A DNA stretch of 64,000 nt from Dermatophagoides farinae (taxonomy: Eukaryota > Arthropoda > Arachnida > Sarcoptiformes > Pyroglyphidae), in assembly GCF_024713945.1 (NCBI RefSeq), contig NC_134678.1, positions 4,030,001-4,094,000 on the forward strand, written 5' to 3'. Shown here piece after piece: positions 2,991 to 54,558 of this stretch (the stretch's first letter is position 1; the number at the start of each line of letters is the position of its first letter). A program made the translations under genes and the position numbers. A model generated the notes under the pieces. The model had not been told where the DNA came from and did no database searches. It was given only the letters and a program-made list of their open reading frames with translations.

Positions 2991-3767
2991 AAAACGAATT
3001 GATCAAATTGTATGGAATGCAGTTTATATCCATAAAAAAAACTAAAAAAATATGGACCGAGGACAATCAGAATAGAAAAAAGTTTTCCAACCTACAAAAT
3101 GAACGAGAATTTATTCAATACACCGCAACTTATCACCAACAACACGACAATGATCAATTTAAACAAACTAAAAATGTTAAACAAATAATCGAATTGAATT
3201 CAATTGGAAATTCTTAGTATACATGAATTGATTATAATCAATAATGATGATGGATTCAATGCCACGGCTAATTTAATCATACAAATGAAATTTCCTTTAA
3301 ATACCATGTTTATCAGTCATGTAGCCACATCAATCAATTGAACAGCCATGTCTGAATTGAATGTCTATGATTTGTGAATCATTATTAGTAAATGATCATA
3401 AACAACCAATAATAAATTTATTTTTTCTTTACATTCATTCATCGATCAATCAAATCGATTCGTTAAATGATAAGAAACCTCGTCTCCAATTGAATTAGGT
3501 TTAGTCAAATCAAATTTGACCATCCATCAATGTGAATGGAAAGNNNNNNNNNNNNNNNNNNNNNNNNNNNNNNNNNNNNNNNNNNNNNNNNNNNNNNNNN
3601 NNNNNNNNNNNNNNNNNNNNNNNNNNNNNNNNNNNNNNNNNNNTTCATCTATTTCGGTAGAATTGTAACAACTCAATCATTTCATGGCCCATGAGTGTTT
3701 TCGATATATATGTTTGATTTTTGATTTGAAATGAGCAGCAGGAAATAATGGAAAAGAAGTTGATATT
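2991..3767. repeat. Duplicated block, copy 2, split by the N gap
   Basis: Second copy of the 2375-2964 block. It differs by a 13-base insertion inside the open frame, about 80 extra bases after the first sub-block (about 3219-3299), and a 100-base N run that separates the second and third sub-blocks. Near-identity next to a scaffold gap fits either a recent tandem duplication or two haplotypes assembled in series. Confidence 0.85.
3544..3643. other. Assembly gap (100 N)
   Basis: Exactly 100 N, the usual placeholder for a scaffold gap of unknown size. It lies inside the second copy of a duplicated block, so the order and copy number of nearby sequence are uncertain. Confidence 0.99.
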
Positions 3768-15388: not shown

Positions 15389-18300
15389 TAATGATCCCGG
15401 TGTCGAAGCAATGATTGTAGTTAATGGAGGAAATCAATTAAATCGAGAAATGATTAAATTAATAATAGAATTAAGTCGTTGTGAAATGACTTGTTGATTT
15501 TATTCACGACACTAGCTGCTAAAGAGACGAACACATACGCTCGATGAGATCAGATCACGTTTGATGATCATAAACATAATTAATTGATCTTGATTGAAGT
15601 TATTGGAAATTTCATAGAAATCACTCAATATTTGGTCAAGTCGTAATGGATGTGTGGATATAAATTAAGTCAGTAAAATTGAAAAACAGAAAAACGGCCA
15701 ACACGCTTGAAAAAACGAAGATATTGTTCGAAATAGAATCAGGCAAACAACATCATTATCATATGCATTCTCTTCATTGTCGTTATCAACAATATTTTTG
15801 ATGGCTACCATCCAAAATGAATCGTTCAGCTGATAACATTGATGATAAACAATCATAACCGATAAATGCTGCTGTTGTGCCTTTTATTGAATGGCAATAA
15901 TAATCTGCAAAATAAAATGAATTTTTAATTTCGATGAAAAAAATACATGTATATAAAATTCTATAAACAGCAAAAACAACAAAATACCTATATAATGATG
16001 ATTGGTATATATGAATTTTATTACGATATTGATGATGATTATGGAGCCATTCCAAAATATACTGATATCCAGTTATCCAGTTATTATGGGTAGAGCTTAA
16101 ACTTTTGGCCAATGTTATTTAGATGAATTATGACAATCCAGCAAGTTGATGACGACAGGTTGATAGAAAATAATCATTTGAAGAAGATACGAAAGAAAAG
16201 AGAACAGACCGAACGACCGGCCGAACAAGATTGATGAATGAAACCAACAAATGAATGTATATTGAAGTTGGGCACCATAACAACCACAACTGGAGCCACG
16301 ATGAAGACTTGTTTCCTTATTATTATTATTTTTTTTTCGTATTCAAGAGATCGACTAGCCAACCAACCTCAAACTAACCAAGCAGCCAACAAATCGACGT
16401 CGTGGATGGATAGATGCTGGCCGCCGTTGTTGTTTGTAGTCGCGCGCGCGATCTTTTAAACAGATATGGCCAAGATGCTGCAATTGATGATGATCAATGC
16501 AATGATACGGTTATTGCACAAAAAAACGGAGGATAATGTTGTTCACTTAGTATATACTGAATTTATGGTCGTTCATAGAACTCCAAATACACAGTTAATG
16601 TACGTGTTTGATTAGTGATTGATTACCGAATATCGACAAAAAAGGATCCACTCTCTTCAATAGGGAAGAAGCCGAATGATAACAATTTTTAATGTCAGAA
16701 TAATCACACGAATTGAATACAAAAAATCTATGTAGTTGGTGGTTGTAGAACTGGTTTTTTATCAAATCACTATCTGATAATGAATGAATTCTATTCTTGT
16801 TCAGTGATGAAAGCATTCGATTCTTCATGATCGAATCACAATACACAAGATTGTTGTCATTATAATGGTGGAAAATCGATACGATTATGAAATCAATTAC
16901 TAAAATAATTTAGCCGAATTATTAAGTTTTTAACAATTTTAAAATGCACTGCATCAACAAACACACAAGCGGTTGAGACTATATGATGATGATATTTGAC
17001 ATTGGAACGATTCAATTGTTTAGGCCAAGTTGCTTTGCTGATTTTTTTTAACTAGTTTGTTCGTTCGTTACTAAAAGAGACGATTTTTCATCATCTATTA
17101 TTGTTCAAATGAAGAGTTGAAATTTCTCAAAAAAAAAAATGAAATCGAAAGTTACTTTGGACAATGGATTGCTGTTGATTCGAACATTGAAAACGATTCT
17201 CTATGAATCAAAAGGCTGTTTTGCTTGAGGTTTCAGTAGATGAAGGCATTATCAAATGAAATACAGAATAATAATAATCCATAAATTCATCCGCTATGGA
17301 ACTATGAGTATATTATTATGGCGATGTATTTATAACAAGAATAATTCATAAAAACGATGATAATAGATTAATAGGGAGAAAGAGTGCCAAGAAAGTATGT
17401 TTATTTTTTTCTCTTTAAATTTTTTGAATCAAACGAATAAATTGACAACGGCAACAAATCAAAATTATGATCGTGTTGTCCCTGATTATTATTTTGCTTC
17501 AAAGGTGGTGAATAGTATGAATAGTAAGAACGATAGGGAGAGAGAAACTTGGAAAAATTATTATATTTCAATGTCGATCACAACTAACGTTGTTTGAATG
17601 GTGATTTGTGTGTAGTGGTGGTTTCGGTGATGTTTGACGGTGAGGAATAATAGATTGATAGAAAAAGAAAAAAATGCCTGTTGTTGATTCGATGATACTT
17701 TGGTTTATTTGGATATATACAATAATAATTCAACTACTACATCTCAATGAATGCATCGTCGTATATAATCATCATCATTATCATCGTGTTATGTGTTGAT
17801 GCTGCATTATTATCATTAGATGATTCTCAGTAATCAAATGATCACATTTTAGGAATGCTGCTTTCAGGTGGTTACAAACAATTACCGACAATGATATATT
17901 CAATTTATTCTTAAGGATGTTGGACAAATTTTTAACCGGTTGCAAATTTTCTTTGGAAACACAAACAACATATACAGTAATGGGCAAAGAATTGATCACC
18001 TTGATGATGAATCAAATAAATCAACTAATTCATTCGATAATTTGTTAAAAAATTCAAACGGAAGAATAAAGATTCAATTTGAGTAGCATTAAATTGGTCG
18101 ATCGTCTTTTTGGATCTTTTTGTTTTGAAATCCTGGTTTTATGCTGATCCTGTTTGTTGCCAATTAACGCTGATATACGGATGATAATGGCCAATTCACA
18201 CACAAAATACATGGACATGAACACAAAAAACCAGCACCAAACAACAACAACAACAACAACAAAAGTGGAGACAGATCGTTTTTGTTTGTTGTGTATTTTG

Positions 18301-20612
18301 TATTCACAATGATGTGATACATTTCAGATCTCTTCTCTTTTTGTTTAGTAATTCGTTAAATGGTTGCACTATACTAATACTATACGCAGGATCACACACA
18401 CACACACACACACAAATAGAAGCAGCCTAATACGATGGCCACAGTTTATTTTATGAGCCGATCGAAATTTCTTGGTTTTGATTTGGTTTGGTATTCGGGA
18501 TTGTGTGTTGTGGATTGTTTATGAGAGTGAGGAATACGCGAGCAATTGGCAGAAAAAAAGACATGGAGAGTGAGCCACTAGCACTATGCACTCTCTCAAA
18601 TTTGCAAGGCCAGCCTCGCACTCTGTGTATCTCAATATATGAGGAAGATGAAAACGACAACGAGGAGGATGAATTTTGAAGGAGGTGACAGAATTCAATT
18701 TTTCTTTTCATAAACATTGTTATTTGTTATTATTATTATTATTATTGATCAATAATATATATCTTATATTCTATGTTCAATACGTATAAGAAATATTCTT
18801 CCAATCAATATAAGAATCAATGAGAATTTTAGGTCAAAATTTTTTTAATTTTTAATTTTTAAAAAAAGTACTTGAAATAAATCTTAATTCAGGGTTTGGT
18901 TGGTTACACATCTATGGTCAAAGTGTCGCGCTGGTTGATTCCACTCGCGCGAGTCCGGTGTATCAGTTGCTACTATATTGTTCGTATGTTTCGATCCTTT
19001 CGAATCATGGATTATGGCCGTATATAATACACAAATGTAAAACACTTAGTGGTCCATCTGTTTAACGAATAAGTTGACTCTATTAGCATGTTTTTTTTTT
19101 GCTTGCTTTGTTTCTGATTTTTCGTTGTTGTTTGTGGTCGTGGCCATCGCCATCGTTCTTGTTGTTCCCGAAAAAGATAGACAAATACATGACCAATAAT
19201 GGATGATATATACTGACTGGCATTTGCAATTCATATTCATACAACAACAATTGAAACACACACGGTGAATGGAATGAATACCACTCATGGGATAATGACA
19301 TGAAATAAAGTTTAACCAAAGAATTATATAATTTATCAATCAGAAACTCATTGAATAAAATCAATCGATTAAATTGTCATAAATAAATGAAATTTTGACG
19401 AAATGTTAATATTCTTATTCTTTCATTTATATTCTATCCTAATCCTAATTGAGATGAATGTGACAGCAATATTTTCAGACAGTCTGTATGTGTTTTCCCT
19501 TTAACAGTGGATGCATTTGCTAAGTGATGATAATCACATCAGCATCAATCGACGAAACATTGGTGCAGGCGCACCATGATTATCATCATTTCCTTACGGA
19601 TAGACAAAAAAAAAATGGAAAAAGACCAAAATTTGAAAAACCTGTGCACTAAAAAAGCAACGCACTGCACAGGTGGTTTGATCTTGTACGAATATATTTA
19701 TAATGAAAGTTTCAATTCGATTGGCTACGAATGTTTTTTGTTCTGTTTTTTTTATCTGTTGTTATTATTCAATGTAGTAGAAGTGGATTTCAAGAGTGAT
19801 TGTATGAAAATTCTTCGTTTCACTCTATTGGGATAGGTATGTCATAAAAAAAACTTTCTTTTGGCAATTGGCGCGTTCGTAAATCGAATAGGACGTATAC
19901 GACACGAGTAAACGTTTTGCATTGGCGTATGTACACATGAAGTGAATATAATAATAGTGAAGCAAGGTCGGCTCTCGGTCCAAGGTCTTCCACTTTTTTG
20001 AATGTGATTGTTGCTATTGCAATTGTTACGGCCCGTTTTCCTTGTTGCTCTACACTTTCTTGTCTTGTTCTTTTCGTTATGACAATGCTCAACCAAAGCC
20101 ACAATGTGTGAGTGACAATCCATCATCTCTGATGATGATGAACAATAATGTTAGCTCAAACAATGATACCATTGATGAGGACCACATTGGACTACGCGGA
20201 ACGTATGATGAAATTTTTTTTTCAAGAGTAAAGTTCACTTTTATACATGCAATTAGATGAAATGAATTGAACAGACAATTGAGTAAATGAAAGAGAAAAA
20301 AAATATAGGCCAAGTTTTTTCAACTTTAAAAAAAATCTCTACGGCAATCATTGTTGACTATTTTTTACTTTACTAACGGGATCGTAAAATCAAATAAAAA
20401 AGGCTTCAAATTTAACTTACCCAACCAAGCAATATTGCTTGTAATATGGTCGCGCCAATTCCAAATCAAAATTATTTTTATCGATTTGTTCGCCATCTAT
20501 GGACAGAATCCATCCATCTACCATATTCTATGTTCACATGCTTGCTTATATATATCTATGCTAAATTGGATAAACATCGCAATTTGATGGTCGTCACATG
20601 TGATTTACTACG
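15389..20612. other. Non-coding region between Mastermind and CIAO3
   Basis: Five kilobases between the divergent genes mam (minus) and CIAO3 (plus). It probably contains the first exon, promoter and regulatory DNA of mam, but I could not identify that exon. Visible are a (CAA/ACA)n run near 18241-18262, a (CA)11 run, a (TTA)n run near 18727-18746 and a small CpG-rich patch at about 18930-18965 with the palindrome CTCGCGCGAG. Open frames up to 108 codons show no family resemblance. Confidence 0.5.
18393..18414. repeat. (CA)11 microsatellite
   Basis: Eleven uninterrupted CA units in the region upstream of Mastermind. Confidence 0.95.
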
Positions 20613-23579
20613 ATGAGTGGATTCAGTTCAGCTTTAAAATTGACTGATTTGAATGATTTTATACAGCCATCACAGGTTAGTATTTGTCATTAAAGCCATT
20701 ATAATTTTATCATCATGTCTGACCTGAACGTAACGCAATCAATCAATAACACTGATAATAATAATGGTAGTGAAAGAGGACAGCAAGGCGAAGATGATGA
20801 CTTTGATTTCTATTATGATTATGCAAAAGCAGCACAATTGGATCGTTCGGGCTGTTGGACCGAACAGAATTGGCAAGAAGAAATGGAGAAACATCCACTG
20901 TTTGCAACAAAAGCTCCGGAACCAGGCCATGAACATTCCGAATTGATCGATGCATTTAATCAGCTAAAATATGATCCACAATTTAATTCAATTGAAGAAT
21001 TAATGGATAGTTATCGTCAAGATGGTAATGAAAATTTTCGCCATAAAAAATATCGCTGGGCAGTTGATTCATATTCCGAAGGTATTCGTTTAGCTCGTGA
21101 TCATTTGTCCAAGAATCAATCAGTCGAGAGCATGCAGACAAGTAAATTCAATGAGTCATTATCCGTTTTGTACAATAATCGAGCATCGGCTCATTTTCAT
21201 CTTGGTAACTATAAAAGTTCAATGCAAGATGCAACTAGAGCAATGTTTTTAAATTCGCAAAATATAAAGGCTAAAATCCGATTCGCTCAATGTTGTTTTG
21301 AAATGAAACGATTCGAAAAATGTATCATTTTCTGCAGCAAAGAACTGAACCAATCAAATGAATTGAATGAAAAATTTCAAGAAAAATTTCGCCAAGAAAT
21401 GCGAATACTTTTAGAACAAGCAGAAAAAAATTTCAAAATACAAAATCGAGATGAACGTAAAATGGTCAAAAATGAACAAAAACGTTTGTCTGAACAGAAA
21501 CGGATTGAACAAGCTGTTGAAGAACGTGGAATAAAATATCAAGCGTCATTATTTGAAACAGATCATCCTGCTGTACGAGGATGTTTCGTACAGTTTGACG
21601 ATACACACCAAACGCAAACACTAATCTGGCCGGTTGTGTTTATTTATCCGGATGTTGGTCAAACTGATTTCATTAAGAAATTCTATGAAAACAGTACATT
21701 TACACAATATATTGAAATGATGTTCGAAATAACACCCGAATGGGATCAAAAAGGTCAATATCGATCTGAACGAATACGATGTTATTATCAATCATGTCAA
21801 ACCTATACGGTCGATGGTGAAAAACGTATAGCACAAGAAATTGAATTGACCGAATTCGATAAAAGTTTGACTTTGTTACAGGTGCTTCAATTCGATGACT
21901 ATATCGTTCAGAATGCTGTTCCAATGTTTTTCTTGAAAATTTAACCATTTTTTTGTACGTTTATGTATCCCTTTGAATCTTGAATAAAATTTTTTGCTTT
22001 ATTTCTTCTCGTTTATTGTTGTTTATCTGACAGGTATGCATAAAACCAGCTGAAACAATTCAGGAAAATAAATCTGACAATAGTGAGGGTGATGACATTA
22101 TAAGGATAAATAAATCAAATAAATCATGGAAAAATCGACAATCAGAGAGGAAGATCAAAGAGAATGCTGATACAGAACACCCTAAATTGTCTCCAGTTTC
22201 GGTAACACTGGGAGATTGTCTGGCCTGTAGTGGTTGTATAACATCAACTGAAGCTGTGCTAATATCTGAACAATCACATGAAAAAGTGATCGATATTTTA
22301 GATGAGAAGCAAAAGGTTTGTGCCACTGAGTTTATAATAAATGTTAACTGAATTATTTCTACTTTAATATTATAGAATCCTAATAATAATTTGATCATAG
22401 TGATGACATTATCATTGCAAGCGCTCGCATCTTTGGCCGTCAAACATCATCTCAATTCAATGGAATCGGCTGCCGAACGCATTGGCCATCTATTCCATTC
22501 ATTAGGTGTCGATTACATTTTCGATCTTGCTTTAGCTCGCCATATTTGTCTTCAAGAATCGTGGCAAGAATTATCGCAACGATTTGTCTCGAATTCAAAC
22601 GCTAAACAACCATTATTGTCATCAACTTGTCCTGGTTTTGTGTGTTATGCTGAAAAATCACAAGGTAATATTCTGGTTCCACTTCTCAGTCGTATCAAAT
22701 CTCCACAACAAATTATGGGCCTTTTGGTGAAAAAACGGTTACATTTAGTCGATGGTTCAAGTTTCCAACGTTCTTCCAGATCGAATCTACCACATAACAT
22801 TAATGCCGTGTTATGACAAAAAATTAGAAGCCTCTCGATTGGAAAATCGTCTTGATGAATCGATTCCGGAAGTAGATTGTGTCATCACCCCATTAGAAGT
22901 GGAAAAGATTCTTGAATTCAAGCAAATCAGAAATTTTGATTCACTTGCTTGCCGACCTCTTGATCAATTCAATGTTGGTTTCAGTCCTGATGGAAAAATA
23001 CAATCGCATCGAGGATCAGGATCAGGAGGCTATGCCGATAATTTATTGCGAATGATGACTATATACCAAAAGATAGCCACACAAGATTTGATGCAAAGTG
23101 AGTTTGAATGGAAAATGGTACGAAATGCTGACTTTTTGGAAATTAATCTTTACAAATCGGAAATGGATTCTAAGCCCTTGGTATCCTTTGCCATATTAAA
23201 TGGTTTTCGTAACGTACAGAATTTGGTATCACGATTGAAGCGAAAATCCTGTTCATATGATTATATCGAAGTATCAGCTTGTCCTAAGGGTTGTCTGAAT
23301 GGTGGGGCTCAATTTCGCAATATTCCATTCAATAAGGAGATGAATGAAAAATTAACTCCAGATTCGGATCCGATCTTGATCACTTTCGAACAAGTCCAGA
23401 AACTTTATGATCAATTACCAAAGACCGAATTGGATTTATTCATCAATAATGGCATAGAAAATACTAAAACTGGTGAACTTTATACAAAATTGCAATTGGA
23501 TGATCAATTTCGTCAAAAATTTCGTACAGAATTTAGAGTTTTGGAGAAAAAATTTAATATTTTAAATTCAAATTGGTGA
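20613..23579 (+). CDS. CIAO3: CIAO3/NARFL (Nar1): cytosolic iron-sulfur assembly component
   Basis: Iron-only-hydrogenase-like protein of the cytosolic Fe-S targeting complex. Exons: 20613-20675, 22034-22315 and 22376-23579, all joined in phase 0. Exon 1 encodes MSGFSSALKLTDLNDFIQPS, nearly identical to the human start, and exon 2 opens with VCIKPAE. All eight expected cluster ligands are visible: Cys in VCIKP plus DCLACSGC for the N-terminal cluster; STCPGFVCYAEK, LMPCYDKKLEASR and ACPKGCLNGG for the hydrogenase-like cluster. The protein ends in the conserved Trp (NSNW). Intron 1 contains the entire TTC4 gene. Oddity: within exon 3 the frame changes by one base between about 22749 and 22800; upstream reads PQQIMGLLVKKRL and downstream reads NVLPDRIYHITLMPC. 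A 22-nt GT-AG stretch (22727-22748) would restore frame but would remove conserved LVK, so an indel or sequence error is likelier. About 510 aa; human 476. Confidence 0.95.
20715..21944 (+). CDS. TTC4: TTC4 (Cns1-type Hsp90/Hsp70 co-chaperone), nested in CIAO3 intron 1
   Basis: TPR co-chaperone linking Hsp70 and Hsp90, with known roles in translation-factor folding. A single intronless frame of 409 aa. The family's N-terminal block is present (HPLFATKAPEPG at about 60-71, then LKYDPQFNSIEEL), followed by three TPR motifs at about 98-215 with carboxylate-clamp style residues (GNENFRHKKYRWAVDSY; LYNNRASAHFHLGNYKSSMQ), a charged helix at about 235-275 and a C-terminal Wheel domain (LIWPVVFIYPD; FEITPEWDQ; final VPMFFLKI). 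It starts 39 nt after the CIAO3 exon 1 donor and ends 89 nt before exon 2, on the same strand. Lack of introns in a gene lying inside an intron raises the possibility of retroposition, but none of the usual retrocopy marks remain. Confidence 0.94.
   Translation: MSDLNVTQSINNTDNNNGSERGQQGEDDDFDFYYDYAKAAQLDRSGCWTEQNWQEEMEKHPLFATKAPEPGHEHSELIDAFNQLKYDPQFNSIEELMDSYRQDGNENFRHKKYRWAVDSYSEGIRLARDHLSKNQSVESMQTSKFNESLSVLYNNRASAHFHLGNYKSSMQDATRAMFLNSQNIKAKIRFAQCCFEMKRFEKCIIFCSKELNQSNELNEKFQEKFRQEMRILLEQAEKNFKIQNRDERKMVKNEQKRLSEQKRIEQAVEERGIKYQASLFETDHPAVRGCFVQFDDTHQTQTLIWPVVFIYPDVGQTDFIKKFYENSTFTQYIEMMFEITPEWDQKGQYRSERIRCYYQSCQTYTVDGEKRIAQEIELTEFDKSLTLLQVLQFDDYIVQNAVPMFFLKI
21983..21988 (+). terminator. 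AATAAA poly(A) signal for TTC4 inside CIAO3 intron 1
   Basis: The canonical hexamer lies 38 nt after the TTC4 stop and 45 nt before the CIAO3 exon 2 acceptor, followed by T-rich and GT-rich sequence. It is placed to end TTC4 transcripts. For CIAO3 transcripts it is a premature intronic poly(A) site that splicing must outrun. Confidence 0.75.
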
Positions 23580-23665: not shown

Positions 23666-23671
23666 AATAAA
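23666..23671 (+). terminator. AATAAA poly(A) signal of CIAO3
   Basis: Canonical hexamer 86 nt after the CIAO3 stop. The next gene (AGGF1) starts 212 nt further on, leaving little room for a separate promoter. Confidence 0.6.
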
Positions 23672-52668: not shown

Positions 52669-53312
52669 TTTTGAGGTTCCAGAATTTTTATCGCGAACGC
52701 CCAATTATATACATCGAACTCAGAGAAACAAAATAATGATGAAAAATTGTATTTTTCGACAACAGGTGTCGTTGACGTAGATCTTTATTTGTATTTTTAA
52801 TTCGAATTTTTTTTATTTGATTTATTAAAATCATCATGAAAATAATAACATCAAATGGAAATTGATATTGCGACTGGAAAAACAAGTAAAACCACCTACC
52901 AATAAATGATAAAACAGGTTTAAAAAAAAATTTATTGAAAATTTTGTCACTATTAGTGTCGAAATCAAATATGGTGAATTATAATTGCCACCAAAATGAT
53001 GATAAGAAAAAAAGTGTCATCATCGAAACCGAGGTCATCGCCATGCCTATGGGCTAGTTATTTTTTCGAAATTAAATATAATTTGTCCCTATTCACAAGC
53101 TGCGATTTGATTCATATCAACCACAGATAAACAGATTTATAAGGCTGCTTGAACAAGTTTAAATGGATTTGTCACCCCGGACATTACAATTACAAGTGAG
53201 TTTTTTCGCAAACTAGGATAATTTCAACGTTGATTACGGTCATATAACAATCGAAAAAAAATTCAATCAGCAGTGATTTTGAGTGAAAAAATCGTAATCA
53301 TTTTGAACAATA
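52669..53312. promoter_or_regulatory. Divergent promoter region, TMEM199 and HPD
   Basis: 644 bp of AT-rich non-coding DNA between outward-facing starts; no distinct elements recognised. A 5'-UTR donor-like GTGAGT occurs at about 53194 before the HPD start. Confidence 0.4.
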
Positions 53313-54558
53313 ATGAGTGGTCGATGTCTATCATTATCACATCTTACCTTCTATGTGACCAATGCTAAACAAGCGGCATTAAATTGGTGTATGCAATATG
53401 GATTCAAACCATTTAGATTTCGTGGTTTAGAAACTGGACATCGTCAACAATGTGGACATGCTGTTCGCAATAATGAAATTGTTCTGGTATTTGTTTCGCC
53501 ATATGATGATACCGATAATTCGATGAATGCCTACCTAATTCGACATGGAAATTCAATCAAAGACATTGGTATGTTCTTATCATTGTGATCTTGTTTTATC
53601 AAATTTTTTTTTGTAGCTTTGAATGTGGATTGTTTGTCAAGCATAAGCGATCGAATCAAAAAGTTTGGGGTGCCCATAAGAGAATGGACCGAAGAGGATA
53701 GTCATGGACTCGTCAAATATGCCCAGGTATTAGCATTTGGCGATACGACACATACGCTGGTAGAACGCAACAATTATCCTGGCACTGAATTTTTGCCCAA
53801 TTGGCGTCAAAACCCATTGGAATCACATCTGACCAATAGTGTTTGGTGCCAATTGCCCGATACCGGTTTGAAACGCATCGATCATTTGGCTATGAATCAA
53901 TTAAACGGTACCGGTAAACAAGTTGGCCAATGGTATAATCAAATGTTGAATTTTAAACGTTTCTGGTCAAACGATGATACGATTATCAATACTGATAGTT
54001 CGGGATTACGTGCAATTTTCATGATCAATGGTGATGATGAAACCGTCAAACTAACCATTAATGAACCTATTTCGGGTTCACATAAATCGCAAATACAAGA
54101 ATTTCTTGATTACCATCAAGGACCAGGTGTACAGCATATTGCTTTTCATACGGATGACATATGTGAATCAATTATGCAGTTGGAAAATAGAGGTACGTCA
54201 CATTTACTGGTTTCGATCATAATCCAAATCGACGATCAATAACTTTTAGGTTTTTTAAATTTAAGGTGTTGAATTTTTGGACACACCTTACGCATATTAT
54301 AAAAATTTAGAACAACGATTGGCCAAAGATAAAATTCAGATTGACAGAGATATTCCTCAATTAATCAAACACAACGTTCTGGTCGATTATGATCATCGTG
54401 GACATCTGTATCAGATTTTCACCCGACCAATACAGGATAGACCAACAGTATTCTTGGAATTGATTGAACGACATCAATTTGGAGGTTTTGGTGCAGGAAA
54501 CATAAAAGCATTGTTCGAATCGATTGAAGAGGAACAAAAACAACGAGGCAATGTATAA
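53313..54558 (+). CDS. HPD: 4-hydroxyphenylpyruvate dioxygenase
   Basis: Fe(II) dioxygenase that converts 4-hydroxyphenylpyruvate to homogentisate in tyrosine breakdown. Exons 53313-53568, 53617-54192 and 54266-54558, in-frame GT-AG joins; 374 aa. All three iron ligands are visible: His175 (LKRIDHLAMN), His259 (GPGVQHIAFHTDD) and Glu342 (TVFLELIERH), close to human H183, H266 and E349. Substrate-contact regions are intact, including PGTEFLPNW and the C-terminal FGGFGAGNIKALFESIE. The introns are only 48 and 73 nt. Tail-to-tail with NDUFAF3, 69 nt apart. It is important in blood- or protein-feeding arthropods that must detoxify tyrosine; relevance here is inference. Confidence 0.97.

Follow-up and report, generated by a model that had tools for sequence, protein, structure and literature searches.

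How can two unrelated genes be expressed separately when one of them lies entirely within the first intron of the other, on the same strand, and begins only a few dozen nucleotides after the host's 5' splice site? The question is raised by a locus in the 64,000-nt stretch of DNA analysed here ('the window'), in which the coding sequence of TTC4 occupies the first intron of CIAO3. The pair represents a very tight natural test of whether a 5' splice site shields a host gene from a nested poly(A) signal, and also of promoter sharing by two unrelated housekeeping genes in a compact animal genome.

Anatomy of the nested pair

The first exon of CIAO3 (20613-20675, + strand; MSGFSSALKLTDLNDFIQPSQ) comprises 21 codons and ends at a phase 0 donor, CAG/GTTAGT, which matches U1 at 8 of 9 positions. 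The intron that follows, as predicted from the sequence, spans 20676-22033 (+, 1358 nt) and contains TTC4, of the Cns1/Dpit47 family, as a single uninterrupted open reading frame (ORF) of 409 codons (20715-21944, +; ATG at 20715, TAA at 21942-21944). An AATAAA (21983-21988, +) lies 38 nt past the TTC4 stop, and a T-rich tract then runs to the acceptor of CIAO3 exon 2 (22034-22315, +; 94 codons), which is preceded by ...ATCTGACAG. A second intron of 60 nt (22316-22375, +), a third exon (22376-23579, +) and a further AATAAA (23666-23671, +), 86 nt past the CIAO3 stop, follow in turn. The host donor and the TTC4 start codon are separated by 39 nt, and the TTC4 stop and CIAO3 exon 2 by 89 nt; intron 1 minus the TTC4 coding sequence amounts to 128 nt. 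These coordinates bear out what the first-pass annotation had given for the 21-codon first exon ending at 20675, for the AATAAA at 21983 and for the second exon from 22034. The whole of TTC4 lies within one predicted intron of CIAO3, and the two genes form a very tight same-strand nested pair, an arrangement that is itself of known kind.

Several observations, taken together with known features of the family, indicate that the host gene is probably CIAO3 and not another hydrogenase-like protein. The Pfam profile Fe_hyd_lg_C (PF02906) matches two adjoining pieces of the predicted protein (1.4e-20 and 6.1e-26, spanning positions 4-114 and 119-245 of the 245 in the profile), and the PDB matches of that protein include FeFe-hydrogenases. 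A cysteine stands at the beginning of exon 2, which also contains CLACSGC, and the C-terminus reads ...NSNW; an N-terminal cysteine motif and a C-terminal tryptophan are features of the CIAO3/Nar1 family, and both are present here. When exon 1 is set against the start of human CIAO3, in what we presume to be the correct human sequence, 14 of 18 residues are alike. Exon 2 needs a spliced-on start exon, because its frame is closed upstream by a TGA at 22028-22030 and it contains no methionine. Both exon 1, of 63 nt, and exon 2, of 282 nt, consist of whole codons, and their junction is therefore in phase 0, with the frame open through exon 1, exon 2 and the early part of exon 3. The closed frame and the phase 0 junction support the host-gene model more strongly than does the evidence offered in the first-pass annotation.

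The nested gene carries the combination of a TPR domain (PF00515, 7.7e-8) and a C-terminal Wheel domain (Cns1/TTC4; PF18972, E 1.4e-18) that places it in the TTC4/Cns1 family, and these matches, with the single ORF, confirm the earlier description of an intronless TTC4 at 20715-21944. In the PDB it matches human TTC4 (6hfo, E 1.8e-13) as well as yeast Cns1 (6hft, E 1.5e-11). Human TTC4 corresponds to Drosophila Dpit47 and binds HSP90 and HSP70 (PMC2253824). Since an in-frame stop at 20691 closes the frame upstream and the next methionine downstream is residue 57, the ATG at 20715 is the sole start for residues 1-56. When TTC4 and the C-terminal piece of CIAO3 were sought in bacterial or archaeal and viral contigs, as possible contaminants, none was confirmed, and the collections searched yielded no eukaryotic relative.

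A survey of local introns, in which 15 ORF pairs were examined, yielded five introns judged credible (60, 48, 73, 52 and 99 nt, with U1 matches of 7, 6, 7, 7 and 7 of 9), while ten pairs were set aside. The first intron of CIAO3, at 1358 nt, contrasts with the 48-99 nt of the five other credible local introns, and its donor exceeds all of theirs (6-7 matches); one candidate donor among the ten set-aside pairs likewise reaches 8/9. Two likely short introns, of 48 and 73 nt, occur in a glyoxalase-fold gene at 53307-54555, which resembles 4-hydroxyphenylpyruvate dioxygenase. An assembly gap of 100 N is located at 3544-3643.

For Dermatophagoides pteronyssinus, the published values are 75 bp for introns and 542 bp for intergenic distances (columns 'M', taken here as medians), with 25.29% of genes intronless (PMC7738191); given that last figure, an intronless TTC4 would in itself not be surprising in such a mite. 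The same abundance of intronless genes in D. pteronyssinus makes the single 409-codon ORF weak evidence for a nested retrogene, although an intronless copy is what such an origin predicts. No target-site duplication was found at TTC4 (the longest word shared by the flanks is 6 nt, against a simulated mean of 7.2), and no long A-tract, as a poly(A) remnant, follows 21988; an old insertion could have lost both marks.

A frame break in CIAO3 exon 3

The layout of exons 1 and 2 stands, but over 20613-23579 the gene as assembled is not intact, a point that the first-pass annotation had missed. Exon 3 is carried by two overlapping frames (22376-22816 and 22749-23579), offset by one position. The hydrogenase-like homology switches frames at a point between about 22745 and 22776, with conserved sequence on both sides, and the break is placed between 22749 and 22776 because the second frame has no open extension upstream of 22749.

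The possibility of an overlooked intron was addressed by listing GT/GC..AG pairs, 11 nt or longer, that would restore the frame; there are 22, five of them between the conserved flanks. A tiny intron was rejected, three of those five candidates measuring only 19-25 nt, as was a GC-AG intron: candidates of 43 and 61 nt have poor GC donors, and would also delete an LVK stretch that aligns with hydrogenases. Past the break a frame of 276 codons continues, with the remainder of the hydrogenase-like domain and the C-terminal tryptophan, and because this frame remains open we attribute the break to an assembly error or to a real (recent) lesion. The geometry of intron 1 is unaffected by it.

Start sites and a proposed sorting of transcripts

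The DNA surrounding the two start codons was scanned for core-promoter motifs, and none of those tested exceeded the simulated expectation; motif content therefore discriminates between no models of where TTC4 transcripts begin. A search of 20450-20720 for paired TATA-like and Inr-like elements (at most 3 and 1 mismatches, respectively, at a spacing of 27-33) returned four pairs (20658 or 20660 with 20689, and 20687 or 20688 with 20715), against 8.2 expected in simulated sequence, and no pair above the CIAO3 ATG in that interval. In the 75 nt before TTC4 two pairs were seen against 1.5 expected by chance, and such a pair was dropped as promoter evidence. Within and just after CIAO3 exon 1 the word TCAKT occurs twice (A+1 at 20625 and 20689), against 0.83 expected in 102 nt, which is not significant. 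Farther upstream, before the CIAO3 ATG, there is a TATATATAT run (20547-20555).

The dinucleotide AG is absent from 20507-20612, the 106 nt before the CIAO3 ATG, where about 4.2 would be expected, so that no ordinary acceptor is available there and the CIAO3 leader is probably unspliced just upstream of its ATG. A 9-codon upstream ORF at 20587-20616 ends in a TGA that overlaps the CIAO3 start codon (ATGA), and CIAO3 may be under upstream-ORF control if transcription starts above 20587. A Pfam search with nine ORFs (69-110 codons each) located between 15789 and 20584 produced no match, and Rfam and tRNA scans of the 64,000-nt window were empty.

At the other end of TTC4, the intronic AATAAA is credible by its position and not by its rarity. 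The hexamer occurs at 1.84 per kb per strand, which gives a probability of 0.14 that 89 nt contain one or more. Among 16 gene ends tested (some of the gene models being uncertain), an AATAAA was found within 400 nt in nine and within 100 nt in seven; the latter count, at a chance of 0.16 for each end, corresponds to a binomial P of 0.008, or of 0.023 when TTC4 is left out (6/15). It is plausible that the element serves TTC4 as a poly(A) signal.

An RNA that retained intron 1 would encounter this signal only after presenting two other ORFs ahead of TTC4. The CIAO3 ATG, with A at -3, would open a 26-codon frame (20613-20693, +) that ends 21 nt before the TTC4 ATG; this read-through of exon 1, with its stop at 20691-20693, is as the first-pass annotation described it. 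A further ATG at 20653, in a weak context (T at -3), begins a frame of 24 codons (20653-20727, +) whose end at 20725-20727 lies past the TTC4 start codon, which it overlaps out of frame. Under the rules of ribosome scanning, both upstream ORFs are expected to depress translation of TTC4.

On balance, we consider it somewhat probable that TTC4 is a same-strand nested gene with start sites of its own just downstream of those of CIAO3, and that transcripts of the two genes are told apart by the 5' splice site at 20675/20676. The TTC4 start sites would most likely fall between 20656 and 20714, within the same open promoter region as those of CIAO3, and the DNA of the TTC4 core promoter would overlie CIAO3 exon 1. 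The earlier contention that 39 nt are too few for a separate promoter fails for this reason: a core promoter serving starts at 20656-20714 can extend over the exon. RNAs begun upstream would carry the donor, at which U1 binding and splicing would silence the signal at 21983 and remove TTC4, to give CIAO3; RNAs begun downstream, lacking the donor, would use the same signal and yield TTC4 mRNA whose leader is very short and free of upstream ORFs. The nested anatomy, the consensus splice sites, the AATAAA and the upstream ORFs are seen in the sequence, whereas the positions of the starts and the way in which transcripts are sorted are inferred.

Several observations favour separate TTC4 starts: the CIAO3 donor is stronger than that of any of the five credible local introns; a start at 20656-20714 would bypass the CIAO3 ATG as well as the ATG at 20653 (and one at 20676 or later would escape the donor too); the ATG at 20715 is the sole start available for the first 56 residues; the distance of the AATAAA from the TTC4 stop resembles that at other local 3' ends; and in the Drosophila nested pairs ytr-eIF6 and xl6-nop5 each gene uses its own poly(A) signal while the host transcripts ignore the nested one, deletion of the donor from reporters bringing back intronic poly(A) use (PMC3890989). 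Weighing on the other side are the lack of any promoter motif better than chance, a TTC4 leader that would be under about 60 nt, the set-aside candidate donor that scores as highly as that of CIAO3, and a sorting mechanism that would be carried over from Drosophila; the TATATATAT run fits a single upstream promoter for both genes equally well.

That single promoter, serving one pre-mRNA, is the arrangement that was first proposed for the locus, with splicing of intron 1 giving CIAO3, and retention followed by cleavage after 21983 giving TTC4 behind the 26-codon upstream ORF. We regard it as unlikely, even though the short distance from donor to TTC4 ATG agrees with it, as does the upstream run, and the T-rich tract at approximately 21989-22030 could double as a downstream poly(A) element and a polypyrimidine tract. 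It also has precedents, in the form of unc-60 (PMC3469465) and ChAT/VAChT, ticks included (PMC7524744), where one transcript can give either of two proteins by a choice of processing, and of Drosophila, where 16 of 70 genes gave both spliced and intron-terminated forms in a changing ratio (PMC3890989), a fraction that makes such an arrangement possible but a minority case in that animal. Against it stand the strength of the exon 1 donor, the pair of upstream ORFs, one of which overlaps the TTC4 start, the disregard of intronic poly(A) signals by the Drosophila host transcripts tested (PMC3890989), and the fact that unc-60 and ChAT/VAChT splice the nested product to a shared exon, which the 39 nt prohibit here. 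The sequence leans away from intron retention as the principal route to TTC4, and a switch in which the balance of splicing and intronic cleavage would set the ratio of CIAO3 (an Fe-S assembly factor) to TTC4 (an Hsp90 co-chaperone), while the CIAO3 start would tune TTC4 translation by opening an upstream ORF, is likewise doubtful. Were the shared-transcript reading true, RNA processing would couple Fe-S cluster assembly to the folding of Hsp90 clients; to our knowledge, the CIAO3 and TTC4 proteins are not partners.

A blend of separate starts and a single promoter, namely one dispersed promoter with starts across about 20560-20714, in which the product would depend on where each start lies with respect to the CIAO3 ATG and donor, seems to us quite unlikely; Inr-like sequences at 20623-20628 (TCAGTT) and 20687-20692 (TCATTA), both downstream of the CIAO3 ATG, suit it, but their number is within chance. 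It is highly improbable that TTC4 possesses a noncoding leader exon upstream, spliced past CIAO3 exon 1 to an AG at 20694-20695: that AG exists, and the stretch with nine unmatched ORFs (15789-20584) may hold leader or regulatory sequence, but the acceptor context is weak. As little credence can be given to CIAO3 being a broken copy, or the locus misassembled, which would make regulation of the host moot and leave only TTC4 of consequence; the exon 3 break speaks for it, whereas the long open frame beyond the break (with its domain remainder and tryptophan), splice sites that fit the consensus, and a lesion that is single and fits an assembly error or recent event speak against it. The nesting itself makes the mature RNAs of CIAO3 and TTC4 exclusive per molecule, because an RNA cleaved after 21983 lacks CIAO3 exons 2-3 and one from which intron 1 has been spliced lacks TTC4.

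Comparison with known nested genes

No description of a nested CIAO3 (NARFL) and TTC4 was found among the matches listed in searches of titles and the starts of abstracts in the open literature. A paper on hub genes in Turner syndrome (PMC10684194) reportedly contains both gene names, NARFL and TTC4, and the human MROH7-TTC4 readthrough involves a different neighbour of TTC4.

Same-strand nesting is well represented in Drosophila, where 865 host genes contain a total of 1,651 nested genes, of which 727 are oriented in the host direction (PMC3890989). The present pair is like ytr-eIF6 and xl6-nop5 in that a nested gene with its own AATAAA resides inside a same-strand host intron; it differs in that separate poly(A) use was demonstrated for the Drosophila pairs (PMC3890989) and is here a prediction. 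The distance from host donor to nested ATG is 39 nt in the present pair.

The ChAT/VAChT locus, including that of Ixodes ticks, likewise places a second ORF in the first intron of its host, after the host's first exon, but there the exon with the VAChT ORF is joined by splicing to the shared first exon, which measures 82 bp in the tick; the two products both serve acetylcholine signalling (PMC7524744). At the present locus, in contrast, CIAO3 exon 1 is coding and the 39 nt before TTC4 are too short for an intron, so that no first exon is spliced to both products. Much the same comparison applies to unc-60 of Caenorhabditis elegans, which resembles the present case in drawing two proteins from one pre-mRNA, by use of an upstream unit or by splicing past it, and differs in that its products are ADF/cofilin isoforms and that exon 1 is spliced to both (PMC3469465). 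The H13/Mcts2 pair offers a further parallel, with a nested gene in a host intron and possible interference between host and nested transcription, although Mcts2 is a retrocopy whose promoter, located in intron 4, is an imprinted CpG island (PMC13309782). Active transcription of the nested gene there promotes intronic polyadenylation of the host (PMC13309782), and by analogy transcriptional interference between CIAO3 and TTC4 may therefore be another possibility.
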